Of a DNA stretch of 64,000 nt, positions 54,168 to 64,000 are shown in pieces. A program made the position numbers and the translations under genes. Under the pieces are notes generated by a model. It was not told the DNA's origin and did not search any database. It saw nothing but the letters and a program-made list of their open reading frames with translations. Source of the DNA: Lachnospiraceae bacterium 3-1 (GTDB lineage: Bacteria; Bacillota; Clostridia; Lachnospirales; Lachnospiraceae); NCBI GenBank assembly GCA_000403255.2, contig KE159591.1:431216-495215 (forward strand), written 5' to 3'. Numbering within the stretch: position 1 is the stretch's first letter; each line of letters begins with the position of its first letter.

Positions 54168-54659
54168 ATGGGATGCCTCCTTTGGGGCGGCGGAGGGTTT
54201 CAAGTGCCATATGTCTCATCCTTGCGGGAACTTGGACAGGAATATGGCCCTGTACAGGATATCAGCATTTGCAGATATCTTCTTACACTGTTGGGGTTGG
54301 TGTTATATTCAATTATTTGTATGATTCCACTGATTCTTATTTCATCACTCAGTTCGATTTTTCTGAAAAATAAATATATCATTCAATTTCTACCTGTCCT
54401 GATTTTGATAGGCGGATATATATTCGCTTTTTTGTTTGGAAACATAAACGAAACACTAAGCTATATTATGCGACAGTTTATTTTTGAACATGCCCTGATC
54501 AATCTGAGCTCACTTTTTTCCCCTAATATTGTTCCGGTAAATGGATCAGTTATGGAATCGGTAATTTACGTGGTTCTTTATCCACTTATGTTAATCATTG
54601 TGTTTTCTGTACTTTATAAGATAAATGTGGAACGGCTTGGAAAGGACTACCTGTTATGA
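54168..54659 (+). pseudogene. ABC exporter permease, N-terminally truncated
   Basis: A 163-codon frame with three or four membrane segments, matching the C-terminal half of a 240 to 250-residue ABC-2-type permease of bacteriocin-immunity or LanEG type (IICMIPLILISSLSSIFLKN, then the last segment LMLIIVFSVLYKINVERLGK). The first half is missing because of the rearrangement at about 54170. It overlaps the next permease gene by 4 bp. If translated, a start inside the fragment would be needed. Confidence 0.6.
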
Positions 54660-55306
54660 ATGTTGTCTTAAAAAATCATTACCGAATCATGATTTGGGGA
54701 GGAATTTATGCCTCTTTTATCTGCATAGCATATCGCGTGTCGGTTCAAATGCAGGGAAAAGATTTCATAGGATTTTTGTATGGAAATTTGTTCAAACTAC
54801 AGAAATATTTTTGGGATGTATCTTTTTTCTTTCATACCTATTTATTTCTTTTAAAGAAACCATTTTCCTCCCCAATGTTTGTTGCAAGATGTAAGCAAAA
54901 TTATTTTTCCTATGTCATCGGATATGGCGTGCAAATTTGTGGATTCTATGTTGCTTTTACAATGCTCCTTTTTTATGGAATTCCTATTTTTTCTGGCTTT
55001 CCAGTCACAATAAATGGAAATATAATCATCCAATTTTTTCATCTATTTTCATTTTTGTTCACGCTGTACCTCTATTACTTATTTCTGCTGATAAAAACCA
55101 ATCGGCAAATGCAGAGTTTGTTGCTAGTGCTTGGAACAAATTTGTTTGTACTTATGTTTTGTCATGCACTTGAATCCATGAACCATGCCTTTGCGTTTCA
55201 GATGGAACATTTTCTGATAAAGGCATATCCCGGACTGGCGGTCTGTATGCTGTTTCTTACCAGGCTTATCGTAAAGAGGAAGGAATGGTTGAATGATGAA
55301 AAATAA
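54656..55306 (+). CDS. ABC exporter membrane protein
   Basis: A 216-residue protein with six predicted membrane segments, starting MNVVLKNHYRIMIWGGIYAS. It lacks a soluble domain. It lies in a four-gene run ending with an ABC ATPase, so it is probably a transporter subunit or accessory protein. The ATGA overlap on the 5' side indicates translational coupling. No family name is secure. Confidence 0.65.
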   Translation: MNVVLKNHYRIMIWGGIYASFICIAYRVSVQMQGKDFIGFLYGNLFKLQKYFWDVSFFFHTYLFLLKKPFSSPMFVARCKQNYFSYVIGYGVQICGFYVAFTMLLFYGIPIFSGFPVTINGNIIIQFFHLFSFLFTLYLYYLFLLIKTNRQMQSLLLVLGTNLFVLMFCHALESMNHAFAFQMEHFLIKAYPGLAVCMLFLTRLIVKRKEWLNDEK

Positions 55307-55970
55307 AAAATTATTGTTTTCATTGATGCTGCTGTTTCATGTTATTGTTTTCAATTCCACCGACGATCCTCTTTTAAATATCGAATTTTTAATGGAGGGA
55401 ATCATCATTGAGCCCTACGATAAAACACCACAATTTATCCTGTATCACTATGTATTGAATTCAGGATTTATGATTTTGCTTATTGCAACAGTCCTTCAAG
55501 CTGTTTCACAGGCATTTGAAATGAGAGATTACATCATCACACGCTGTACAAATTTAAAATTTAAGTTTGTATTACTGAAAACCGCCTTGAAAAATATTTT
55601 TATAATATTAGCGATGAAACAAATCATCTATTGCCTGTTTTTTCTATATGGGAAATCATTCACCATGTTTTATTTCTACGATATGGCTTCCACCTTTTTT
55701 ACACTGTTGATGTATGCCCAATGGTTTATTTTATTTCAATTGCATGGCATCAAGGATAAGATTCCCCTGTTTCTCATTGTTGGAATAAATATGATTGGTC
55801 AAATGTTATCCTATGATCACCATGCTTTTTCCATGCTGGTGACTGCTTCCCTGGAGTGGCAGACATATTTTGGAAGAAATATCATTGGAAAAATCATCGT
55901 GATTCTGCTATTTAGCAATATGATATATTTACATAAAAATCTTGATAAAACGTTAGGAGTAAAAGACTGA
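55293..55970 (+). CDS. ABC exporter membrane protein
   Basis: A 225-residue protein with about six membrane segments (MMKNKKLLFSLMLLFHVIVF at the start). It overlaps the upstream membrane protein gene by 14 bp and the ATPase gene by one base (TGATG). The composition resembles the two genes before it, and all are AT-rich. A three-permease plus one-ATPase layout is typical of antimicrobial peptide exporters, but the substrate is unknown. Confidence 0.65.
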   Translation: MMKNKKLLFSLMLLFHVIVFNSTDDPLLNIEFLMEGIIIEPYDKTPQFILYHYVLNSGFMILLIATVLQAVSQAFEMRDYIITRCTNLKFKFVLLKTALKNIFIILAMKQIIYCLFFLYGKSFTMFYFYDMASTFFTLLMYAQWFILFQLHGIKDKIPLFLIVGINMIGQMLSYDHHAFSMLVTASLEWQTYFGRNIIGKIIVILLFSNMIYLHKNLDKTLGVKD

Positions 55971-56572
55971 TGATAAGATTGAATAACGTAACGAAAAAAT
56001 TAAAAGGAAAGGTTGTCATTGATAATGCTTCACTGACATTTGAGAAAGGAAAACTTTATTTACTCCGTGGTCACAATGGCTCTGGAAAAACAATGCTTTT
56101 AAGATTGTTGTGTGATTTACTCACACCCACCAGTGGAACGATTGAAAAACCAGAGTACACTTATGGAGTTATGATTGAAACTCCTAATTTCGTACTCCAT
56201 GAGACCGCAAGACAAAACCTGAAATTTCTCGCTTCTATCCAGAAAAAAATTGGTATAAAAGAGATAGAAAAAAACTTAGAAGAAGTCAATTTATTAGGTG
56301 AGATTGACACCAAAATAAAAAATTATTCGCTGGGAATGAAGCAGCGGTTGGGATTTTGCCAGGCAGTGATGGAAAACCCCGATGTTTTGCTCTTAGATGA
56401 GCCTTTCAATGCCTTAGATGATGAACACTTTGATTTCATATTGAAACGAATATTAGAAATGAAAAAGGATAAAATAATTGTCATTGCTGCGCACGGATTT
56501 GATATGGAAAAATACCCTGTTTTTGATCAGGTGATTACACTGAATAATGGGAAAGTAACTCAAATTGTATAA
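55970..56572 (+). CDS. ABC transporter ATP-binding protein
   Basis: A 200-residue ATPase with Walker A RGHNGSGKTMLLRLL near residue 33, signature NYSLGMKQRLGFCQAV near 119 and Walker B VLLLDEPFNALDDEH near 142. The Q-loop sits in MIETPNFVLHETARQNL, as in bacteriocin-immunity (LanF/BcrA-like) ATPases. It is short because the C-terminal extension is absent. It is followed by a terminator. Confidence 0.9.
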   Translation: MIRLNNVTKKLKGKVVIDNASLTFEKGKLYLLRGHNGSGKTMLLRLLCDLLTPTSGTIEKPEYTYGVMIETPNFVLHETARQNLKFLASIQKKIGIKEIEKNLEEVNLLGEIDTKIKNYSLGMKQRLGFCQAVMENPDVLLLDEPFNALDDEHFDFILKRILEMKKDKIIVIAAHGFDMEKYPVFDQVITLNNGKVTQIV

Positions 56573-56660: not shown

Positions 56661-57302
56661 TTATCTTATATCTACAACTGCATAATCCCCTATTTCGATT
56701 TTATCACCAATTTGAAAAACCAAAGGCTTCTGAAAAACCGGCCCATCTATGGTAAGGGTGTGGTATTCTCCATTCTCACCACAGATATCAATGCCTGCTG
56801 CCTTCATAACTAAGATAGCCTCTTCGTCAAGAAATTTTCCTAGAAGCTCCATTGGCAGAACCCTCCGGTTGACACTCTTAATAAGACATTTATAGCCAAG
56901 CCGAATGAATTCATAAACGATCTCCTCACGCCCCTGCTGCCACAACGGGAAGCAAGGGTACAATCCAACAGCCTTGCAGCGTTCTTCCTCCCACTGTCGA
57001 TTTTCTTCTATATCAATGTCGCCAAAACAGACTCCTTCGGCACCCATAGTTTTTGCTTTCAAAAGCCCTTTTTCAAAAGCAGATTGGTAGGTTGCACCTT
57101 GTGCCGGACAGGTTATCATAGGAATATTCAGGGCTTTAGCATAACGTTCCAGCATGATACTGTCCGCGCCATGAAAATAAGAACGGTCAGCATCCTCCCT
57201 TACCATAACAACCAAGCACACAGGTTCATGCCCCTGTTCCAGCATCTTGTGAAGGGCCAAGGTACTGTCCTTTCCACAACTGTATGACATAGCAAATTTC
57301 AT
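56661..57302 (-). CDS. Dph6-like PP-loop ATP pyrophosphatase
   Basis: A 213-residue cytoplasmic protein of the adenine nucleotide alpha-hydrolase fold. The PP-loop is SYSCGKDSTLAL at residues 6 to 17. The family core includes GVCFGDIDIEENRQWEEERC near 90 and GENGEYHTLTIDGPVF near 175. Dph6 in eukaryotes amidates diphthine, but bacteria lack diphthamide, so the bacterial role is a different amide or thio transfer that is unknown. It overlaps the propeller protein by 4 bp, and the two appear to be partners. Confidence 0.85.
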   Translation of the reverse strand: MKFAMSYSCGKDSTLALHKMLEQGHEPVCLVVMVREDADRSYFHGADSIMLERYAKALNIPMITCPAQGATYQSAFEKGLLKAKTMGAEGVCFGDIDIEENRQWEEERCKAVGLYPCFPLWQQGREEIVYEFIRLGYKCLIKSVNRRVLPMELLGKFLDEEAILVMKAAGIDICGENGEYHTLTIDGPVFQKPLVFQIGDKIEIGDYAVVDIR

Positions 57303-58399
57303 AAGGCGCCTCCTTCAGTTAAAAATTCTTTTATATTATAAGAGGCTACGGCAAGAATCCCAGATTTCATACACAATGCACTTCCTAATTCATCTGTAAC
57401 AATCATATATTCTAATTCAGACAGTTTTCCCATCTCATTCACTTTGCCTTTCCACAATGCTCCCTCTTCCGTAGATGAGTAGAATATCCCTTTTGCTTCT
57501 GGATCAAAGATAACATCAAAATTAAAGACCTGCTGATGCATTTCATCAATTTTTAACCAGACTTTGTCCGCTAATTCAAACTGAAATGTCTCTGAATTTA
57601 GTTTATAACTCCACAAATTGTTATCACTATCTCCCACAGCGCAATTTGCAACTAACAAAATACCATTTTGATATGCTATATTATTAATCCCCCGCTGCGC
57701 ATCTGGATTATAAACAGCCGCAGACAAAATTTTGCCGTCTGGAATACGTACAACTGTCAAATTCCCATCTTCAGAACCAGCAGCCACACATCCGCCGCCT
57801 AAATCTGCAAGTCCGCGGATATTATGCAAATCCCAGGGATTTACCGGATGCTCTGAACGGATGTCTATACCGTTTACAAAGGTTAAATCTGCATTATTTC
57901 CGCTTAATAGCCAAACACTAATGTATCCATTTGAATGGCCAATAACTACATACGTTTTCCCATTGGCAGTTATCAGAATACCCCTGTTTGCCACCCCATA
58001 TTCTCCGCTGTATTTGACAACTTTAGGGGTTCCCAGATTAGCCCAATCTTGTAAATCTTCTAGTTGCCAAACCGCAATACTGTCCTCGCTGTTTGATGAG
58101 ACAAATCCCTTCTGACTTGAAATGTATAGTGAAGTGAGCATTTGTATTCCTTCCTGCGCTGGTCCATTAACAGCTTTCACTATAACCGGTCCATAATATG
58201 CAGATTCCTTCACTTTAAAAATACTTAAGCTTCCGTCCCACCTTCCTACCGCATAATGTTCCGCATCAATAAATGCAGCTTCTTGCGCCATTGCGTATAT
58301 TTCCGTTACTTCTGTTAACCCTGTAATGCTGTCAGGCAGATTTTCCTTTAAAAGATATAACCTTGATCTCAGTACCATAGGCATTGTTCTCGTCTGCAT
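57299..58399 (-). CDS. WD40-like beta-propeller protein
   Basis: A 366-residue cytoplasmic protein without a signal peptide. It has repeated strands ending in S-I-V-W or S-V-W-L (WDGSLSIFKV, SEDSIAVWQL, SNGYISVWLL, EDGNLTVVRI), the pattern of WD40 blades, and seven blades would fit. The start at 58399 has AGGAGGGG; the earlier in-frame start is less good. It is upstream of and coupled to the Dph6-like ATPase. In eukaryotes the propeller Dph7 and Dph6 act in the same diphthamide pathway, so the pairing is suggestive. Confidence 0.75.
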   Translation of the reverse strand: MQTRTMPMVLRSRLYLLKENLPDSITGLTEVTEIYAMAQEAAFIDAEHYAVGRWDGSLSIFKVKESAYYGPVIVKAVNGPAQEGIQMLTSLYISSQKGFVSSNSEDSIAVWQLEDLQDWANLGTPKVVKYSGEYGVANRGILITANGKTYVVIGHSNGYISVWLLSGNNADLTFVNGIDIRSEHPVNPWDLHNIRGLADLGGGCVAAGSEDGNLTVVRIPDGKILSAAVYNPDAQRGINNIAYQNGILLVANCAVGDSDNNLWSYKLNSETFQFELADKVWLKIDEMHQQVFNFDVIFDPEAKGIFYSSTEEGALWKGKVNEMGKLSELEYMIVTDELGSALCMKSGILAVASYNIKEFLTEGGAL

Positions 58400-58548
58400 A
58401 ACTACCCCTCCTAAAAACAAATCGCTTCCTCAGCTTAACAAAGCCTGAGGACACTGGCTGCTAACTTTGTTTAAGTATATCAGACTTCTGAATTACTTAC
58501 AAGTATCAGGATAACTTTGCAGTCATGCTTCACCCTAAAAATTTTTCC

Positions 58549-58731
58549 TCACTCACCGATTTTATCTTTCTTTGTCAATCCCCGAAAAAGCAACATAGCG
58601 CAAACTGCTGAAATTGTTCCACTGGATACCGATTCTAAGTTGAGTCCATTCATATTACAAAACACATTGACTGCAATTAAAACTATCAGTACTACCGCTG
58701 CTATGGCAGCTCCTTTTAATAAATCATTCAT
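58549..58731 (-). CDS. Small hydrophobic protein in the lantibiotic cluster
   Basis: A 60-residue protein with two likely membrane segments (AAIAAVVLIVLIAVNVFC and a shorter one near residues 36 to 50) and a charged tail. It follows the beta precursor gene on the same strand. It has an AGGAG site and no leader-type motif, so it is not a precursor. A producer-immunity role (LanI-like) is a reasonable guess without sequence proof. Confidence 0.55.
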   Translation of the reverse strand: MNDLLKGAAIAAVVLIVLIAVNVFCNMNGLNLESVSSGTISAVCAMLLFRGLTKKDKIGE

Positions 58732-58757
58732 TTCTTTTTTCTCCTTTCCAATTATTC

Positions 58758-58792
58758 AGCCACACCGTCCATTTTTTACAGGCGGTGTGACT
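58758..58792 (-). terminator. Hairpin downstream of the beta precursor gene
   Basis: On the minus strand, AGTCACACCG and CGGTGTGGCT form a 10-bp stem with one G-U pair and a 15-base loop. It lacks a U-tract, so it probably gives partial termination or transcript protection, raising precursor mRNA relative to the gene beyond. Confidence 0.45.
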
Positions 58793-58807
58793 GCGATGGG
58801 TCTTAAA

Positions 58808-58990
58808 TCAACATTTTGACGTACATTTAAGCGTTGGACAAATTCCTGTTGATAGCGCAACCGTTATTGCAAGGGTTGCTTCCGCTAATGCTCCACCATC
58901 CGGTGTCTCAACATCAGCTAATTCCTGTAATTCTTTTTCGTCTACGGTTCCTTCTGGCGCATTCTTTTTTCCCTTTTTTAATTCTTCCAT
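58808..58990 (-). CDS. Lantibiotic beta precursor (LanA2)
   Basis: A 60-residue class II precursor. The acidic leader (residues 1 to 33) ends in a double-glycine site ADVETPDGG. The core ALAEATLAITVALSTGIC and tail CPTLKCTSKC hold three Cys (51, 56, 60) with Ser/Thr for lanthionine rings. The tail CPTxKCTxxC is the same as that of haloduracin and lichenicidin beta peptides, whose function is pore formation with the alpha-bound lipid II. The gene has a GGAAAAAA site and follows the alpha precursor by 28 bases. Confidence 0.9.
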   Translation of the reverse strand: MEELKKGKKNAPEGTVDEKELQELADVETPDGGALAEATLAITVALSTGICPTLKCTSKC

Positions 58991-59018
58991 TTTTTTCCCC
59001 CTTTTCTTTTGTTATTTA

Positions 59019-59231
59019 TTAGTTACAGCATGGCTGACATTCTTTTGTCAATGTGCAAAATCTTCCTTTATTTCCAAGGCTGGCGCTAAGTTCTTCATAC
59101 CAGCCTGCACCGGCTAAAGTTTCCATGTCCTGCTCTGTCAATTCTACTGCTACACTCCCACTTGGGTTTTTCATTAATGTGCTTACCTTTTCTCTTAAAA
59201 CTGGATCCTTAATTTCTGATAAATCTCTCAT
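59019..59231 (-). CDS. Lantibiotic alpha precursor (LanA1)
   Basis: A 70-residue class II precursor. The leader has the conserved MKNPSG-like and LTEQDMETLAGAG parts, with cleavage expected in the AGAG segment. The core WYEELSASLGNKGRFCTLTK then ECQPCCN contains C59, C65, C68 and C69. RFCTLTKEC is the mersacidin-type lipid II-binding ring with Glu64, and WYEELSASLGNKG matches haloduracin alpha WYNISCRLGNKG in layout, though without one of its Cys. The start at 59231 follows AAGGAG; a longer in-frame start lies at 59273. It is first in the structural operon. Confidence 0.92.
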   Translation of the reverse strand: MRDLSEIKDPVLREKVSTLMKNPSGSVAVELTEQDMETLAGAGWYEELSASLGNKGRFCTLTKECQPCCN

Positions 59232-59396
59232 CTCTTTTTTCTCCTTTTCTTCTTTCGATTTATAAATGAACAAATCCGAAAATTGTACATTATGCCATTG
59301 ATACTAACAAATTATCTAATGCTAATGGGATCGCGACCACATTGCTTCAAATTTGTTCATTTATGTTTTACTTGTTTTGTGTTCCTTACAAATACG

Positions 59397-59449
59397 ATTA
59401 TACCTAAGTTTCACTGATTCATACGATTTTATAGTTAAACATCGATTTT
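59397..59449 (-). promoter_or_regulatory. Candidate LytTR-controlled promoter for the lantibiotic genes
   Basis: Minus-strand TATAAT (59397-59402) lacks a consensus -35. Directly upstream are two direct repeats AAAATCG (59443-59449 and 59424-59430) with 19 bases from start to start, close to the roughly 21-base spacing of LytTR half-sites. A third similar word lies at the -10. The transcript leader to the alpha gene is about 150 bases. The layout fits activation by the LytTR regulator encoded upstream. Confidence 0.5.
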
Positions 59450-59508
59450 CCGTCATTTTCGTTTTTCCTATCCTTTTGATATGCATTTAAGAATCTTAAA
59501 CGTAAATT

Positions 59509-60261
59509 TTAATTTTGATATAACTTTTCAATCACATCATCATATTCTTGGTAAGACAGATACCCATGTGCAAACCATTTTCTCACTTCTGCAATATCAT
59601 CTTGATACGCTTCCAGCTCCATGTATTTCTGATTATACATACGAAAAACTTTCCTTTGCAGTTCACTAGGATGCGGAATATACCCCTCCAGGGCATACCG
59701 GTTTACTCCTTGTGCGCATTGCAATAGCTTTGGACGGATACTCTCTAAAACTTGATTCTCTTTCATATAACTGTCATAATAAGTTGCCGCCTCAATAATT
59801 CCAACATTGATGATCCCTAAGTAATCCATAAATTTCTTGAGATACTCTGATACATAATTCAAACCATTTCCCCCTGAAGTCGCTATCACAATTCCAAGCT
59901 TCCCCGTTAATTCCATGGTATGGGTCCAATAAGAAAGACGGTCCACGAGCTTTTTCATATTTCCAGACACTGCATGAAAATAAACCGGGCTACCCATTAT
60001 AATACAATCCGCTGCCAGCATCTTTTTCCGAATCTCATTCATATCATCCTTACCATCCATCCCACAGATTCCACGTATAAAACATTGCGTACACCCAATA
60101 CATTCTTCCATATGCGTATTATACCCTGTATACTCATCTACGACAACTCTTGCTTGTGTTCGTTCTGCAATTGTTTTCACAAGTTCCATCGCAATTATCT
60201 GCGTGGTTGAATGCAGATTGCGGCTTCCAGAATACACAAAAATTCTTATTTCTTTTTTCAA
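59509..60261 (-). CDS. NADPH-dependent FMN reductase (flavodoxin-like fold)
   Basis: A 250-residue soluble protein of the NADPH-dependent FMN reductase family. The FMN phosphate loop is SGSRNLHSTTQ near residues 12 to 22, the flavin-contacting motif is GSPVYFHAVSGNMKKLVDRL near 95 to 115 and the TSGGNG loop lies near 137. A four-Cys cluster CIGCTQCFIRGIC near residue 54 resembles an Fe-S or redox site. It directly abuts the regulator gene and lies in the lantibiotic cluster, so it may be a redox tailoring enzyme acting on dehydroalanine (LanJ-like) or a control for flavin redox; neither is shown. Confidence 0.8.
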   Translation of the reverse strand: MKKEIRIFVYSGSRNLHSTTQIIAMELVKTIAERTQARVVVDEYTGYNTHMEECIGCTQCFIRGICGMDGKDDMNEIRKKMLAADCIIMGSPVYFHAVSGNMKKLVDRLSYWTHTMELTGKLGIVIATSGGNGLNYVSEYLKKFMDYLGIINVGIIEAATYYDSYMKENQVLESIRPKLLQCAQGVNRYALEGYIPHPSELQRKVFRMYNQKYMELEAYQDDIAEVRKWFAHGYLSYQEYDDVIEKLYQN

Positions 60262-60984
60262 TTATTTTAACCCTTTCATCATGCGGGAGGAAAGCAGGCA
60301 TTCATCTCCATTGACCATGTAAATCACCCGATTCTGGAAATCAATTTCTTTGATATTATCCTTATTCACCAAAAAGGATCGGTGACAACGATAAAATCTC
60401 CCATCAACCTCTTTTTCAATCTCTTTAATTTTTCCTAAAAATTCCATTTGTCGATGTTTGCAATGTAAAATGATCTTATGGACATTAGGAGATGTTTCGA
60501 AAAAAAGAATCTCATCATAATCCACAGTAAATACCTTTTCATTTACTTTCACAGAAAAATTTGCCTGCACTTTATTATTCACAGACGCAAATCTTTGATT
60601 CGCTTTCAGAATACACTCATATACTCTTTTTCCCAATTCTTCGGGGTTATCCTTCAAAATGAAATCCAATGCCTCTAATTTGTAAATAAAGGTCATGTAA
60701 CTCATTTCTGAATGAGTGGTAACAAATATAATAAATCCTCTGGGATCATATTTTCTAATTTCCTGTGCCAAGGTCAGTCCTGTCATATCTGCCTTCAAAT
60801 CAATATCCAGAAAATATATTCCAACATCTTCTGTTTCTTTCACTTTTTCCAGGATTCTATGTGGATCTTCAGACACACAGCTAAGTTCCATGTCCAAATC
60901 TTCCATAAGAACAATATTTTCAATCACCTGCTGTATTTTATCTCTTTGCGCCTCTATATCTTCACATACATATATTTTTAACAT
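60262..60984 (-). CDS. LytTR family response regulator
   Basis: A 240-residue regulator: receiver domain at residues 1 to 120 (VCEDIEAQ, phosphoacceptor in VGIYFLDIDL) and LytTR DNA-binding domain at about 140 to 238 (EILFFETSPNVHKIILHCKH, RFYRCHRSFLVNKDNIKEID). It is of the AgrA/ComE type and usually works with a GHKL kinase, which is not found in the window. It has its own promoter and would control the alpha-beta operon. It ends one base before the flavin reductase gene. Confidence 0.92.
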   Translation of the reverse strand: MLKIYVCEDIEAQRDKIQQVIENIVLMEDLDMELSCVSEDPHRILEKVKETEDVGIYFLDIDLKADMTGLTLAQEIRKYDPRGFIIFVTTHSEMSYMTFIYKLEALDFILKDNPEELGKRVYECILKANQRFASVNNKVQANFSVKVNEKVFTVDYDEILFFETSPNVHKIILHCKHRQMEFLGKIKEIEKEVDGRFYRCHRSFLVNKDNIKEIDFQNRVIYMVNGDECLLSSRMMKGLK

Positions 60985-61026
60985 ACCGCATTTCCCCCTT
61001 CCAATTGTATCAAGGATTTTTTTATT

Positions 61027-61055
61027 ATTATTGCCAAATGCCTGAACGTTGTCAA
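61027..61055 (-). promoter_or_regulatory. Promoter for the LytTR regulator and reductase
   Basis: Minus-strand TTGACA (61050-61055) and AATAAT (61027-61032) with a 17-base spacer, about 40 bases before the regulator start. An imperfect hairpin at about 61106-61135 may close the transcript from the LanF-like gene. Confidence 0.6.
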
Positions 61056-61161
61056 TAAAAAGCTTCCAAAATAGCGATCATCCACATGCCTTTCGAGCAA
61101 CCACCAAAACGAGAGAAGCCAAATGTCTCCTCCCGTTCCAAGCAGCTATTAAAAACTCCCT

Positions 61162-62031
61162 TTAGTCTTTGATAAGTTCTAAGAAAGTATCTTCCAAAGT
61201 CTCGCATGCCTCATAAAGTCCTGTCATTACCACATTGTGTGACGCCAGTAATTTTGCAACATCATTCTTTTCATTTGCGCCAATCTTAATTCGCACCTCC
61301 TGCTCATTCTGTGAAGCCACATGATATCCATTCTCTTTAAGAATTTCTTGTGTGGCTTCTGTATCCAGACTTTCGATTACAAAAGTAATCTGTTTCTTCT
61401 TTCTATCATTGTGCAAATCCATGAATTGAATGATTTCACCTTTTTTAATCAGAATCGCTCGATCGCACAACTTTTCCAATTCACCCAATAAGTGACTTGA
61501 AATCAATACAGTAATGTTTTTTTCATTGGCAATTTTCCTGATGTATTCACGCACCTCATAGATGCCTTCAGGATCCAGTCCATTGGTTGGTTCATCCAAC
61601 ACCAAAACATCTGGGTCTTTGAGCAAAGCCTGGGCAATCCCTAACCTTTGCCTCATCCCAAGAGAATATGCTTTGACATTTTTATTTGCAGAATCTATAA
61701 GACCTAACAGTTCTAATAATTCTACTACCCTCTTTTCTCCTACGCCATTTAATTTGGCAAAGTACATCAAATTTTGATATCCTGTGTTATATGGATAAAA
61801 ATTGGGAGTTTCAATCATACTGCCAATATCTCTAACGCCCCTTAAGTCTACTTCTCCAGTATATTTTCTGGTTAGCCCTACTAAGACTTTCATGATACTG
61901 GTTTTTCCAGCTCCATTTGGTCCGATTAATCCAACAATCTCTCCTCTTCCAAGTTCAAAGGATACTTGCTTTAAAATTTGAAAATCTTTTACTTTCCTGC
62001 TAACATTATTAACTCTTAATACACAATTCAT
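61162..62031 (-). CDS. lanF: LanF-like ABC transporter ATP-binding protein
   Basis: A 289-residue ATPase of the BcrA/LanF class. Walker A is GLIGPNGAGKTSIMKVLV near residues 36 to 53, the Q-loop is MIETPNFYPYNTGYQNL near 80, the signature is AYSLGMRQRLGIAQAL near 125 and Walker B is VLVLDEPTNGLDPEG near 147. The C-terminal extension is full length. It is likely the ATPase of a lantibiotic self-immunity exporter whose membrane subunits (LanE/G) lie elsewhere, possibly beyond the window. It is 21 bases after lanM, with a GAGAGGTG site. Confidence 0.88.
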   Translation of the reverse strand: MNCVLRVNNVSRKVKDFQILKQVSFELGRGEIVGLIGPNGAGKTSIMKVLVGLTRKYTGEVDLRGVRDIGSMIETPNFYPYNTGYQNLMYFAKLNGVGEKRVVELLELLGLIDSANKNVKAYSLGMRQRLGIAQALLKDPDVLVLDEPTNGLDPEGIYEVREYIRKIANEKNITVLISSHLLGELEKLCDRAILIKKGEIIQFMDLHNDRKKKQITFVIESLDTEATQEILKENGYHVASQNEQEVRIKIGANEKNDVAKLLASHNVVMTGLYEACETLEDTFLELIKD

Positions 62032-62051
62032 ATTTTCACCTCTCACTCCTA

Positions 62052-64000
62052 TTAGTCAAGCTCCAAAATAGATGGAACATCCTGTGATAATGCAACAAGC
62101 AAGGAATAGCCAATCCCGCTCATGCCTAACATGAGGCCATATGGCAGCAATGGCCTTTCCTTTATGTAATCTGGAAATTTCAAAGCAAGCTTCTGGTAAG
62201 TACACTCACATTCCCTTTTTAATCCTTCATCCTCCAATATCCCTCCAATGCGCCCAATTAGCTCAATATTTCCAATGTCTCCATGGCAATAACAAATATT
62301 GTTTCCAAGTGCATGGCGTTTCATATTTTTTAAATTTTGTAACAACTCTTCTTTTTCTTTCTCAACGCCACCTCTGCTCTTCCACTGTTTTATCTGACTA
62401 TACAAAATTCCTGGTGCGCCATGGCACCATCCGTAGGAATAATCATTCCTTCCCAAAACCGTTTTCCAGTTATGTTTTTCCTTGACATACATTTTTTTCA
62501 CAAAAGCATGGGAACGATCCAATACCTCTTTTAGCTCATCTGAAGGATACCTTTCATACACACTTGTCAATGCTTCTTCTATCCCACAACTACCATGGGC
62601 ATATCCTGAATAAACATGATCATTCAAACCACTATACCATGCAATACTCCCATCCTTCCACACTTTCTTTTGGGCAATCAAATGACTTGTCAGCAACTGT
62701 ATCATTTCCTTTGCCAAGTCTTTGACTCTCCCTTGAAAACGCTTCTGCAAACTAATACATACCTTAATGGCTCCCGCCGAACCGCTGATAATGTCATAGT
62801 TTCTATCCCGGTGATAGATTTTTTTCATTCGTAATAAGCCTTCCTCCACAAGCCCCAGCATGTTCTCATCTTTTGCTTCCAGATAAAACTTGCTAAACAC
62901 ATAGATATAGCCGCTTAACCCATTGAACGGACCAATTAAATAAGAAGAATACTCATCGATTTTTTGCATTCTGTGAATCACGCCATGCACACATGCATAC
63001 GCCGCATCTAAGTATGTCTTTTTTCCAGAAGCTTTCCATAAATATAGGAAAAACAATCCAATGCCAGACGTCCCGCTATATAAATCACCTTCTACTGGCA
63101 ATAACTCATAATTAATGTGGTCGTCCCCTACAGGCATAAAATTTATCCAGGATAACTGCCATTCTCCATGAACCCGTGCTTCCTTCGCTTCCCTTAACAA
63201 TTTTTTCCCAATTGCCTCCGCCATCTGTAAATATGGAATACTGACTTCAGGGCTTTTGCTCCACTTGGAATTTGTCAACCAAATACGCCTATAGTCTTCC
63301 ACATTCTTGGATAAAAAAGCATGATCAATGATATCCTTTTGCTTTTGTAAATCATCCATACTAAAATGATTTATTTTTTCCTCTACCAACTCATATGGTG
63401 TTTTCTGAAAAAAAAGAGGAAGCGCTTCTTGGGCAGAATTCCTCATAACGCCAGTATGGATATTCACCTCAAAAAAAGGGACATCTCCAATCATCATATC
63501 TTTGATTTCAGATACAACAATCTGATTTTCCTGCTTTTTTACTTTGTATGCCATTCGATGCAGCAAAACATATCTATGGGCTTTCACTCTCATAAAATCT
63601 GGATGACTGCTGGTAAACATTAATTTTGTATACAAATAGGTAGGTCTGTAAATAACCCTTGTATTTACACCACCGAACCATTCTTTTATGGACGCCGCCA
63701 GATCTTTTTTATTCTTCATAATGAAACGATAAGCATCCTCAAATCCCTGCATAATAAAATCGCGGTAATCTGAGGCATTGGCAGCCACACCGTGATACTT
63801 CGCAACATTCTTCTGTGGCTGAATCATATAATCAGATTTTTCCAAACATATCTCATCTGTCTCTTTGTTTTGTATCATTAAAATCTTAAATGGCGAAACC
63901 TGCTGCTTTTCTCCGCCAAATCCACTAATATCCACAGAACTGCTTCCCTTATCATATGGGTTGGTCAAATGCATTGGCAGCAGCCCGATGGAATAAACAG
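62052..64000 (-). CDS. lanM: Class II lanthipeptide synthetase LanM, C-terminal part
   Basis: The frame is open to the window edge, so this is the last 648 residues of a protein usually near 1,000 long. The visible dehydratase end has VDISGFGGEK and RPTYLYTKLMF. A LanC-like cyclase domain starts near the segment GDLYSGTSGIGLFF; its Zn ligands are the Cys of GWCHGAPG and the Cys-His of CYCHGDIG. Other conserved cyclase motifs are GSAGAIK and GYAHGSCGI. It dehydrates Ser/Thr of the two precursors and closes lanthionine rings. Two-component systems often have two LanM enzymes, so a second may lie beyond the edge. Confidence 0.95.
   Translation of the reverse strand, partial: VYSIGLLPMHLTNPYDKGSSSVDISGFGGEKQQVSPFKILMIQNKETDEICLEKSDYMIQPQKNVAKYHGVAANASDYRDFIMQGFEDAYRFIMKNKKDLAASIKEWFGGVNTRVIYRPTYLYTKLMFTSSHPDFMRVKAHRYVLLHRMAYKVKKQENQIVVSEIKDMMIGDVPFFEVNIHTGVMRNSAQEALPLFFQKTPYELVEEKINHFSMDDLQKQKDIIDHAFLSKNVEDYRRIWLTNSKWSKSPEVSIPYLQMAEAIGKKLLREAKEARVHGEWQLSWINFMPVGDDHINYELLPVEGDLYSGTSGIGLFFLYLWKASGKKTYLDAAYACVHGVIHRMQKIDEYSSYLIGPFNGLSGYIYVFSKFYLEAKDENMLGLVEEGLLRMKKIYHRDRNYDIISGSAGAIKVCISLQKRFQGRVKDLAKEMIQLLTSHLIAQKKVWKDGSIAWYSGLNDHVYSGYAHGSCGIEEALTSVYERYPSDELKEVLDRSHAFVKKMYVKEKHNWKTVLGRNDYSYGWCHGAPGILYSQIKQWKSRGGVEKEKEELLQNLKNMKRHALGNNICYCHGDIGNIELIGRIGGILEDEGLKRECECTYQKLALKFPDYIKERPLLPYGLMLGMSGIGYSLLVALSQDVPSILELD

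Follow-up and report, generated by a model that had tools for sequence, protein, structure and literature searches.

A probably functional two-component class II lantibiotic gene cluster with agr-type genes in Lachnospiraceae bacterium 3-1

We analysed a 64,000-nucleotide stretch of DNA from Lachnospiraceae bacterium 3-1 (hereafter the window), which spans positions 431216-495215 of contig C21 (KE159591.1) in a genome of 5.08 Mb in 27 contigs (G000). The window runs into a gene set that is very likely a complete, probably functional two-component class II lantibiotic cluster of the haloduracin/lichenicidin type. This is the best reading of the region: the alpha and beta precursors and both LanM enzymes match curated models, and LanM1 is complete with its zinc ligands. 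A preliminary description of the window had placed the two precursors, a LanM and a LanF on one strand, and all four were found on the minus strand, with no internal stops in alpha, beta or LanF and a LanM1 frame that is open throughout. Truncation of LanM at the window edge, set there beforehand as a refuting test, is ruled out: LanM1 starts 1144 bases past the edge, and locus L004 holds the full open reading frame (ORF) of 1030 amino acids. The preliminary description was also right to expect the remaining genes beyond the edge. Of the genes that it asked for, two LanTs, another LanM and a single ABC-2 type permease were found there. In extended window numbering, used here for all coordinates above 64000, the cluster reaches 75518, and its far part consists of an agrD-like peptide, AgrC, AgrB, LanT1, LanM2, a small protein that we call pep3, LanT2 and the permease. 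A candidate LanJB had been overlooked at that stage, as had a circuit of the agr type whose direct repeats are conserved.

At sequence level, the profile matches of the cluster genes are far above chance. For the alpha precursor, two models scored over their cut-offs: the plantaricin C family lantibiotic model NF000539 (E 2.5e-22; 79.1 bits against a cut-off of 29) and the Lantibiotic alpha model PF14867 (E 2.8e-10; 40.2 bits against 27). Beta matched NF038161 (LchA2/BrtA2; E 1.4e-15, 57.5 bits, cut-off 26). The haloduracin/lichenicidin signatures claimed for them were seen as CTLTKEC in alpha and CPTLKCTSKC in beta. Alpha likely starts at the ATG at 59231; the ORF list begins at the TTG at 59273. 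Cleavage after GA would release a predicted alpha core of 28 residues, GWYEELSASLGNKGRFCTLTKECQPCCN, and cleavage after GG the beta core, ALAEATLAITVALSTGICPTLKCTSKC. With CTLTKEC, alpha carries the lipid II motif CTxTxD/EC (PMC10027976); this motif and the mode of action have been described (PMC10027976, PMC4949975). When nine chosen alpha-type precursors were aligned (those of L035, L041, L045 and L059 being omitted), four of the five invariant columns belonged to the lipid II segment or corresponded to the last Cys.

The alpha core had been said to lack one of the Cys residues of haloduracin alpha. In fact both N-terminal Cys residues are absent, positions 1 and 8 being Gly and Ala, and Cys26, beside the last Cys, is extra. 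We take C1 and C8 to form the disulfide pair of haloduracin alpha. The altered ring pattern that had been expected holds insofar as this N-terminal pair is lost, but Ser7, Cys17, Thr18, Thr20, Cys23 and Cys27 stay in register; these residues and Glu22 presumably match the haloduracin alpha letters. The same two Cys losses occur in the alpha of genome G009, which belongs to another genus of the family, and no Cys precedes Cys17 in either alpha core. In G009 Ser7 is retained but position 9 is Ala, which makes Ser7 the probable ring-A residue. The rings of alpha should be 7-17, 18-23 and 20-27 (or 20-26), with one Cys free or in a disulfide; the three C-terminal rings are thus expected to be retained, and one Cys is probably left unbridged. 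With three Ser/Thr against four Cys in the G009 core, one or more of its Cys residues must lie outside a thioether; the window core has four of each and may form a fourth ring. Cys26 occupies the position of what we take to be a Ser in haloduracin. That Ser is named as not dehydrated (PMC2727956). Alpha is a naturally occurring case in which to ask whether the N-terminal disulfide is required and how an extra Cys beside the last ring acts. The beta core contains seven Ser/Thr and only three Cys and therefore has residues that could be reduced.

Against TIGR03897 (cut-off 304), LanM1 scored 755.4 bits and LanM2 685 bits. Both enzymes are complete, they are 29% identical to each other, and in an alignment of 14 LanMs both kept the zinc ligands (WC...CHG) and the dehydratase motif DxHxxN...D. 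CHG was present in all 14; the WCHG segment read WCN or WCK in three. In a LanM tree built without the LanMs cut by locus ends (L034, L036) and without the G009 and G082 C12 enzymes, LanM2 grouped with G418_first (0.96) and Smyc_B (0.94), each from another two-LanM cluster. Most likely, LanM1 would act on alpha and LanM2 on beta. One scan of genome contigs gave a single distant Bacillus LanM match (28% identical), and locus L007 was inspected for small ORFs only.

The entire set recurs in G009 in the same order on two contigs, at 37-79% identity: permease, LanT2, pep3, LanM2, LanT1, AgrB, divergent AgrC, agrD-like peptide, LanM1, LanF, AgrA, FMN (flavin mononucleotide) reductase, alpha, beta and membrane peptide. 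One contig ends and the other starts inside LanM1 (query residues 1-811 and 785-1030), from which we infer their adjacency. Identities were 65% for the permease, 79% for LanT2, 58% for LanM2, 75% for LanT1, 49% for AgrB, 46% for AgrC, 57-59% for LanM1, 79% for LanF, 74% for AgrA, 54% for the FMN reductase, 71-74% for alpha and 70% for beta. Ratios of nonsynonymous to synonymous change (dN/dS, NG86) between G000 and G009 were 0.12 for alpha and 0.09 for beta; as dS exceeded 1, these ratios are rough. Such clusters are sparse. The alpha search found matches in 4/397 family genomes, own included, with G009 alone being close, and NF000539 matched in three of 392 order genomes and two of 398 phylum genomes, own included in each. 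LanM1 had matches in ten of 29 genomes of the genus, own included, and the best-scoring one outside its own genome was 27% identical. This pattern suggests horizontal acquisition, and the cluster adds a complete, conserved two-component system to a family in which the alpha type is rare.

Several genes point to agr-type regulation. AgrB matched PF04647 (E 2.4e-25); AgrC matched NF046015 (E 2.9e-55, 188.2 bits) and the AgrA-like regulator NF046049 (E 2.1e-75, 253.4 bits), below the equivalog cut-offs of 500 and 400, respectively. The agrD-like peptide stops 17 bases before LanM1. Its G009 homologue is 56-57% identical, with a variable middle and a conserved tail, MHEVEKPxCLKRL. Position, conservation and this layout would suit an AgrD peptide. 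Speculatively, the conserved Ser before F-x-M could give rise to a Ser-lactone signal. Upstream of the agrD-like gene, G000 and G009 carry a direct repeat of two exact 9-base copies set 12 bases apart (CRTTTACGA-N12-CRTTTACGA), which reads CATTTACGA in G000 and CGTTTACGA in G009. A version with two mismatches lies upstream of the permease in both genomes. Only half-sites were found upstream of alpha: one with a mismatch in G000, which has no 21-bp partner there, and two exact ones facing each other in G009. Shuffled sequences, with up to three mismatches allowed, gave a mean of 0.03-0.04 matches per locus; the one match seen was reached in 7/200 shuffles of L004 and 6/200 of L005, and the two matches of L055 in 0/200. 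Because the pattern was derived from the same repeats, these counts describe and do not test; more weight lies with the recurrence of the repeat at the same place and spacing in both genomes. For Clostridium acetobutylicum, agr control has been reported for a LanM-like gene (PMC10301443), and agr-type genes adjoin plantaricin C family lantibiotics on two Priestia plasmids as well; a link between agr and lantibiotics is therefore not new.

The FMN reductase matched PF03358 (E 3.9e-23), and its nearest solved chain was 1sqs, the hypothetical protein SP1951 (E 4.5e-20), which we take to be a pneumococcal protein from a lantibiotic locus. Homologues were present in the clusters of G009, G418 and G918, i.e. 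in four of the 12 alpha-type clusters examined, own included (one of the 12 being a 6.4-kb contig). These homologues scored 105, 133 and 301 bits by tblastn. The best paralogue in the own genome reached 44.3 bits over 155 residues with a different program, so the two kinds of score are only roughly comparable. At E <= 1e-40, a limit of our own choosing, homologues occurred in two of 200 family genomes, and both carry this cluster. FMN reductases were noted in lantibiotic clusters earlier (PMC3951391); in class II clusters they have been named LanJB, and published usage links them to the reduction of dehydro residues (PMC7268733, PMC7794033). The enzyme is a candidate LanJB that probably converts dehydroalanine and dehydrobutyrine (Dha/Dhb) to D-Ala and D-2-aminobutyrate (D-Abu).

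Both LanTs keep the Cys, His and Asp of the C39 peptidase and the ATP-binding cassette (ABC) motifs. A reading of LanT2 as a broken fragment of 377 amino acids was rejected as an artefact of a locus edge: a tblastn alignment ran continuously over 711 columns, and a stop-free frame of 719 amino acids is present. In NCBIfam, LanF came closest to PmtC (215.3 bits against a cut-off of 375) and to TIGR03740, the lantibiotic-protection ATPase (191.5 bits against 309.75). The 60-residue membrane peptide gave no Pfam or NCBIfam match over cut-off and one weak PHROGs match, to holin phrog_263 (E 0.0084). It has a 37.5% identical homologue in the same place 3' of beta in G009, and from this position we regard it as a candidate immunity peptide. 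About 2 kb from the cluster end, at 54168-56572 on the plus strand, lie three ORFs that by eye resemble membrane proteins and a 200-residue ABC ATPase (PF00005); this group may be another immunity or export set.

Between LanT2 and LanM2 lies pep3, a Cys-free protein with a leader-like N-terminal half, which overlaps the 3' end of LanT2 and directly precedes LanM2. It matched no Pfam or NCBIfam model and nothing significant in the PDB (best E 0.49), no plasmid and no relative among viral contigs. Weak PHROGs matches, to families without an assigned function, were obtained for the window copy (phrog_712, E 0.0028) and the G009 copy (phrog_1202, E 0.012; phrog_712, 0.24). Among the papers listed by our literature searches, which were not sequence-directed, none was seen to describe a pep3-like protein. 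An AlphaFold model gave a low-confidence helix (pLDDT 62.9, pTM 0.32), and dN/dS between G000 and G009 was unobtainable, synonymous change being too saturated. The family was found in 3/397 family genomes (G000, G009 and G082), each time in a cluster with two LanTs; in 179 phylum genomes only the own copy appeared. The G009 copy is 72% identical, and the G082 copy carries one Cys. In G082, pep3 sits between two LanTs in a different cluster, with a LanM, three alpha-like matches (weakest E 0.005) and ABC genes. In eight loci with one LanT (L033, L035, L036, L041-L045; 16.7-21.1 kb each) there was no pep3 match at E <= 1e-3, a count that covers the fetched stretches, outside which a second LanT may lie. 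A tree of 13 LanTs, built without that of G701, placed LanT2 and its G009 and G082 partners in one clade (0.99), LanT1 and its partners in another (0.90), and the two as sisters (0.99). The LanT pair therefore appears older than the split of the two cluster kinds. The G082 LanT before pep3 (L059 7552-9726) has Gln in place of the catalytic His of C39, and the neighbouring LanT has the His.

The likeness of pep3 to a leader is suggestive only. Of 2000 shuffles made for each of the three pep3 sequences, 34, 62 and 43 scored as high as the originals against the alpha leader; compared with beta, the G082 pep3 stood out (1/2000), the other two giving 1945 and 1622. C39 transporters use hydrophobic positions -4, -7, -12 and -15 of their substrates (PMC6363468, PMC7018657). 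With Ala-Thr taken as -2/-1, a register that we chose for three sequences, positions -15, -12, -7 and -4 are hydrophobic in all three homologues (I/I/I, M/L/L, I/I/V and I/I/I). GG, GA or GS at -2/-1 is absent, and Ala-Thr occupies these positions in 3/3. It is conceivable, though unlikely, that pep3 is a dedicated leader mimic, small, helical and uncleavable, with Ala-Thr for the double Gly, that docks in the groove of a LanT1/LanT2 heterodimer and gates, assembles or assigns substrates. If so, pep3 would be a new accessory component of peptidase-containing ABC transporters, given its co-occurrence with the old LanT pair in two kinds of cluster. How such exporters are gated is a question that the LanT pair and its conserved leader-like peptide raise in concrete form. 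A published two-component lantibiotic cluster already has several transporters named LanT (PMC6458615).

We considered three other explanations. The genes could belong to two adjacent lanthipeptide systems, one comprising alpha, beta and LanM1 and the other pep3, LanM2 and LanT2. Bicereucin has one Cys-free half, and on this model the product of pep3 would resemble that half as a dehydrated, D-amino-acid-bearing linear peptide. The overlap of pep3 with LanT2, its place just ahead of LanM2, its conservation in G009, its leader-like half and the presence of the FMN reductase all fit such an arrangement. Yet G418 has a LanM2-like enzyme with alpha- and beta-like precursors and no pep3 match, the pep3 of G082 stands alongside one LanM and three alpha-like matches with no FMN reductase match, and pep3 has Ala-Thr at the cleavage position instead of GG, GA or GS. 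We therefore judge two systems to be decidedly improbable. That the cluster is a decaying or silent remnant is very hard to maintain: in its favour, LanM1 itself was found in its own genome alone among the 29 of the genus, but no frame in the cluster is broken, the seeming LanT2 fragment having come from a locus edge, and dN/dS of the precursors is low.

The third alternative concerns the FMN reductase, which might act on thiols or redox state, for example by keeping Cys26 reduced, instead of being LanJB. Its CX2CX2CX5C motif, shared with G009 and G918 and present as CX2CX2CX4C in G418, suggests an iron-sulfur flavoprotein, and the G009 alpha, with fewer Ser/Thr than Cys, is compatible with this role. 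The surplus of Ser/Thr over Cys in beta leaves substrates for a LanJB, however, and published class II FMN reductases are tied to dehydro-residue reduction (PMC7268733, PMC7794033). A thiol or redox role is somewhat unlikely.

Several observations weigh against a complete two-component cluster under agr-type control. The LanM1 branch of the LanM tree is weakly supported (0.55-0.69), so the assignment of alpha and beta to the two enzymes is partly by elimination. The agrD-like peptide matched no AgrD model, whereas a Priestia AgrD control matched TIGR04223. Constraint between G000 and G009 is less strict for the agrD-like peptide (dN/dS 0.36) and the membrane peptide (0.56). The full direct repeat was not found in the 64-kb window, so none precedes alpha. 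LanF scores under the curated cut-offs, and the sole permease lies ~12.7 kb away. No LanP protease was recognised among the cluster ORFs scanned, although in relatives the peptide undergoes a second trimming (PMC2727956, PMC13060208).

The genes, intact catalytic motifs, conserved gene order and repeats were observed directly, and the chemical and biological steps of the following model are all deduced from them. In a two-component cluster, LanM1 and LanM2 would dehydrate and cyclise two dissimilar precursors, and the FMN reductase would probably reduce the dehydro residues that remain, chiefly those of beta, to D-Ala or D-Abu. Removal of the leaders, at GA in alpha and at GG in beta, and export of the peptides would fall to the C39 transporters. 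Through its CTLTKEC ring, alpha would then bind lipid II and recruit beta, and pores would form in other Gram-positive bacteria. Protection of the producer would come from LanF, the permease and the membrane peptide. The agr-type circuit (AgrB, AgrC, AgrA and the agrD-like peptide) would turn the operons on at high cell density via the CRTTTACGA direct repeats.

The antibiotic type is known, and the package of agr circuit, LanJB candidate, paired LanTs with pep3 and an alpha without N-terminal Cys is a variant of it. The predicted antibiotic would be a new member of the haloduracin/lichenicidin type and may be the credible new antimicrobial that the preliminary description saw in it. With haloduracin (HalA1/HalA2, HalM1/HalM2) the cluster shares two LanMs, the CPTxKCTxxC of beta and, presumably, the register of alpha. 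It differs in lacking the N-terminal Cys pair of alpha and in having Cys26 for the undehydrated Ser (PMC2727956), and it adds the agr circuit, the LanJB candidate and a second LanT. Among solved structures, alpha matched lichenicidin alpha (PDB 8c5j) best (E 0.0039 over 23 residues), with differences at the N-terminus and in the C-terminal Cys; the match of beta to lichenicidin beta (PDB 2kto) was not significant (E 5.2). Lichenicidin also has the protease LicP (PMC2727956), whereas none was recognised in the present cluster. Lacticin 3147, rodencin and birimositide likewise combine two precursors with a dehydro-residue reductase in each cluster (PMC11519912, PMC7268733). Their reductases are LanJA or the luciferase-like LanJC (PMC7268733), in contrast to the FMN reductase (LanJB) family here. 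The Priestia megaterium plasmids pFDU301E and pPmC-142-5 bring together a plantaricin C family precursor, LanM, LanT and agr-type genes, but identity to LanM1 is 29-30%, and the fetched stretches gave no beta, FMN reductase or pep3 match.

Table 1. Features of the lantibiotic cluster and their positions
Feature	Position	Strand	Model or remark
60-residue membrane peptide	58549..58731	-	candidate immunity peptide, role from position
Beta precursor	58808..58990	-	LchA2/BrtA2 family (NF038161)
Alpha precursor	59019..59231	-	plantaricin C family (NF000539, PF14867)
Candidate AgrA half-site CGTTTAAGA, one mismatch vs CGTTTACGA	59494..59502	-	upstream of alpha
FMN reductase, candidate LanJB	59509..60261	-	PF03358
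AgrA-like response regulator (REC + LytTR)	60262..60984	-	PF04397, PF00072
LanF-like ABC ATPase, candidate immunity	61162..62046	-	PF00005
LanM1, 1030 aa	62052-65144 (in window 62052..64000)	-	TIGR03897; full ORF in locus L004
agrD-like peptide	inside 65162-65386	-	position, G009 homologue
AgrC	65502-66827	+	NF046015, below cut-off
AgrB	66926-67486	-	PF04647
LanT1, 709 aa, C39 exporter	67505-69634	-	
LanM2, 917 aa	69659-72412	-	TIGR03897
pep3, 60 aa	72446-72628	-	no Pfam/NCBIfam match
LanT2, 719 aa, C39 exporter, TTG start behind GGAGG	72621-74780	-	
ABC-2 type permease	74793-75518	-	PF12679 E 3.9e-5, below its cut-off

The same genome encodes a third complete LanM (988 amino acids, zinc ligands intact) on contig C3 (L006, 2531-16594). 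The genes beside it resemble a small set for a type II polyketide, with two ketosynthases, an acyltransferase, a PF04199 cyclase, a glycosyltransferase, a MATE exporter and a PadR regulator; by eye there is also an ORF of 78 amino acids resembling an acyl carrier protein, and one ketosynthase seemingly lacks the active-site Cys. No precursor peptide was recognised near this LanM in L006. Past the permease end of the cluster, two large ORFs (L005 2945-5107 and 9484-12165) resemble restriction-modification methyltransferases by eye. At 56661-58420 of the window, a protein of 373 amino acids weakly matches a beta-propeller model (PF25173; E 0.002, under the cut-off), and its gene overlaps a diphthine--ammonia ligase-like gene (PF01902, E 2.7e-40) by four bases.

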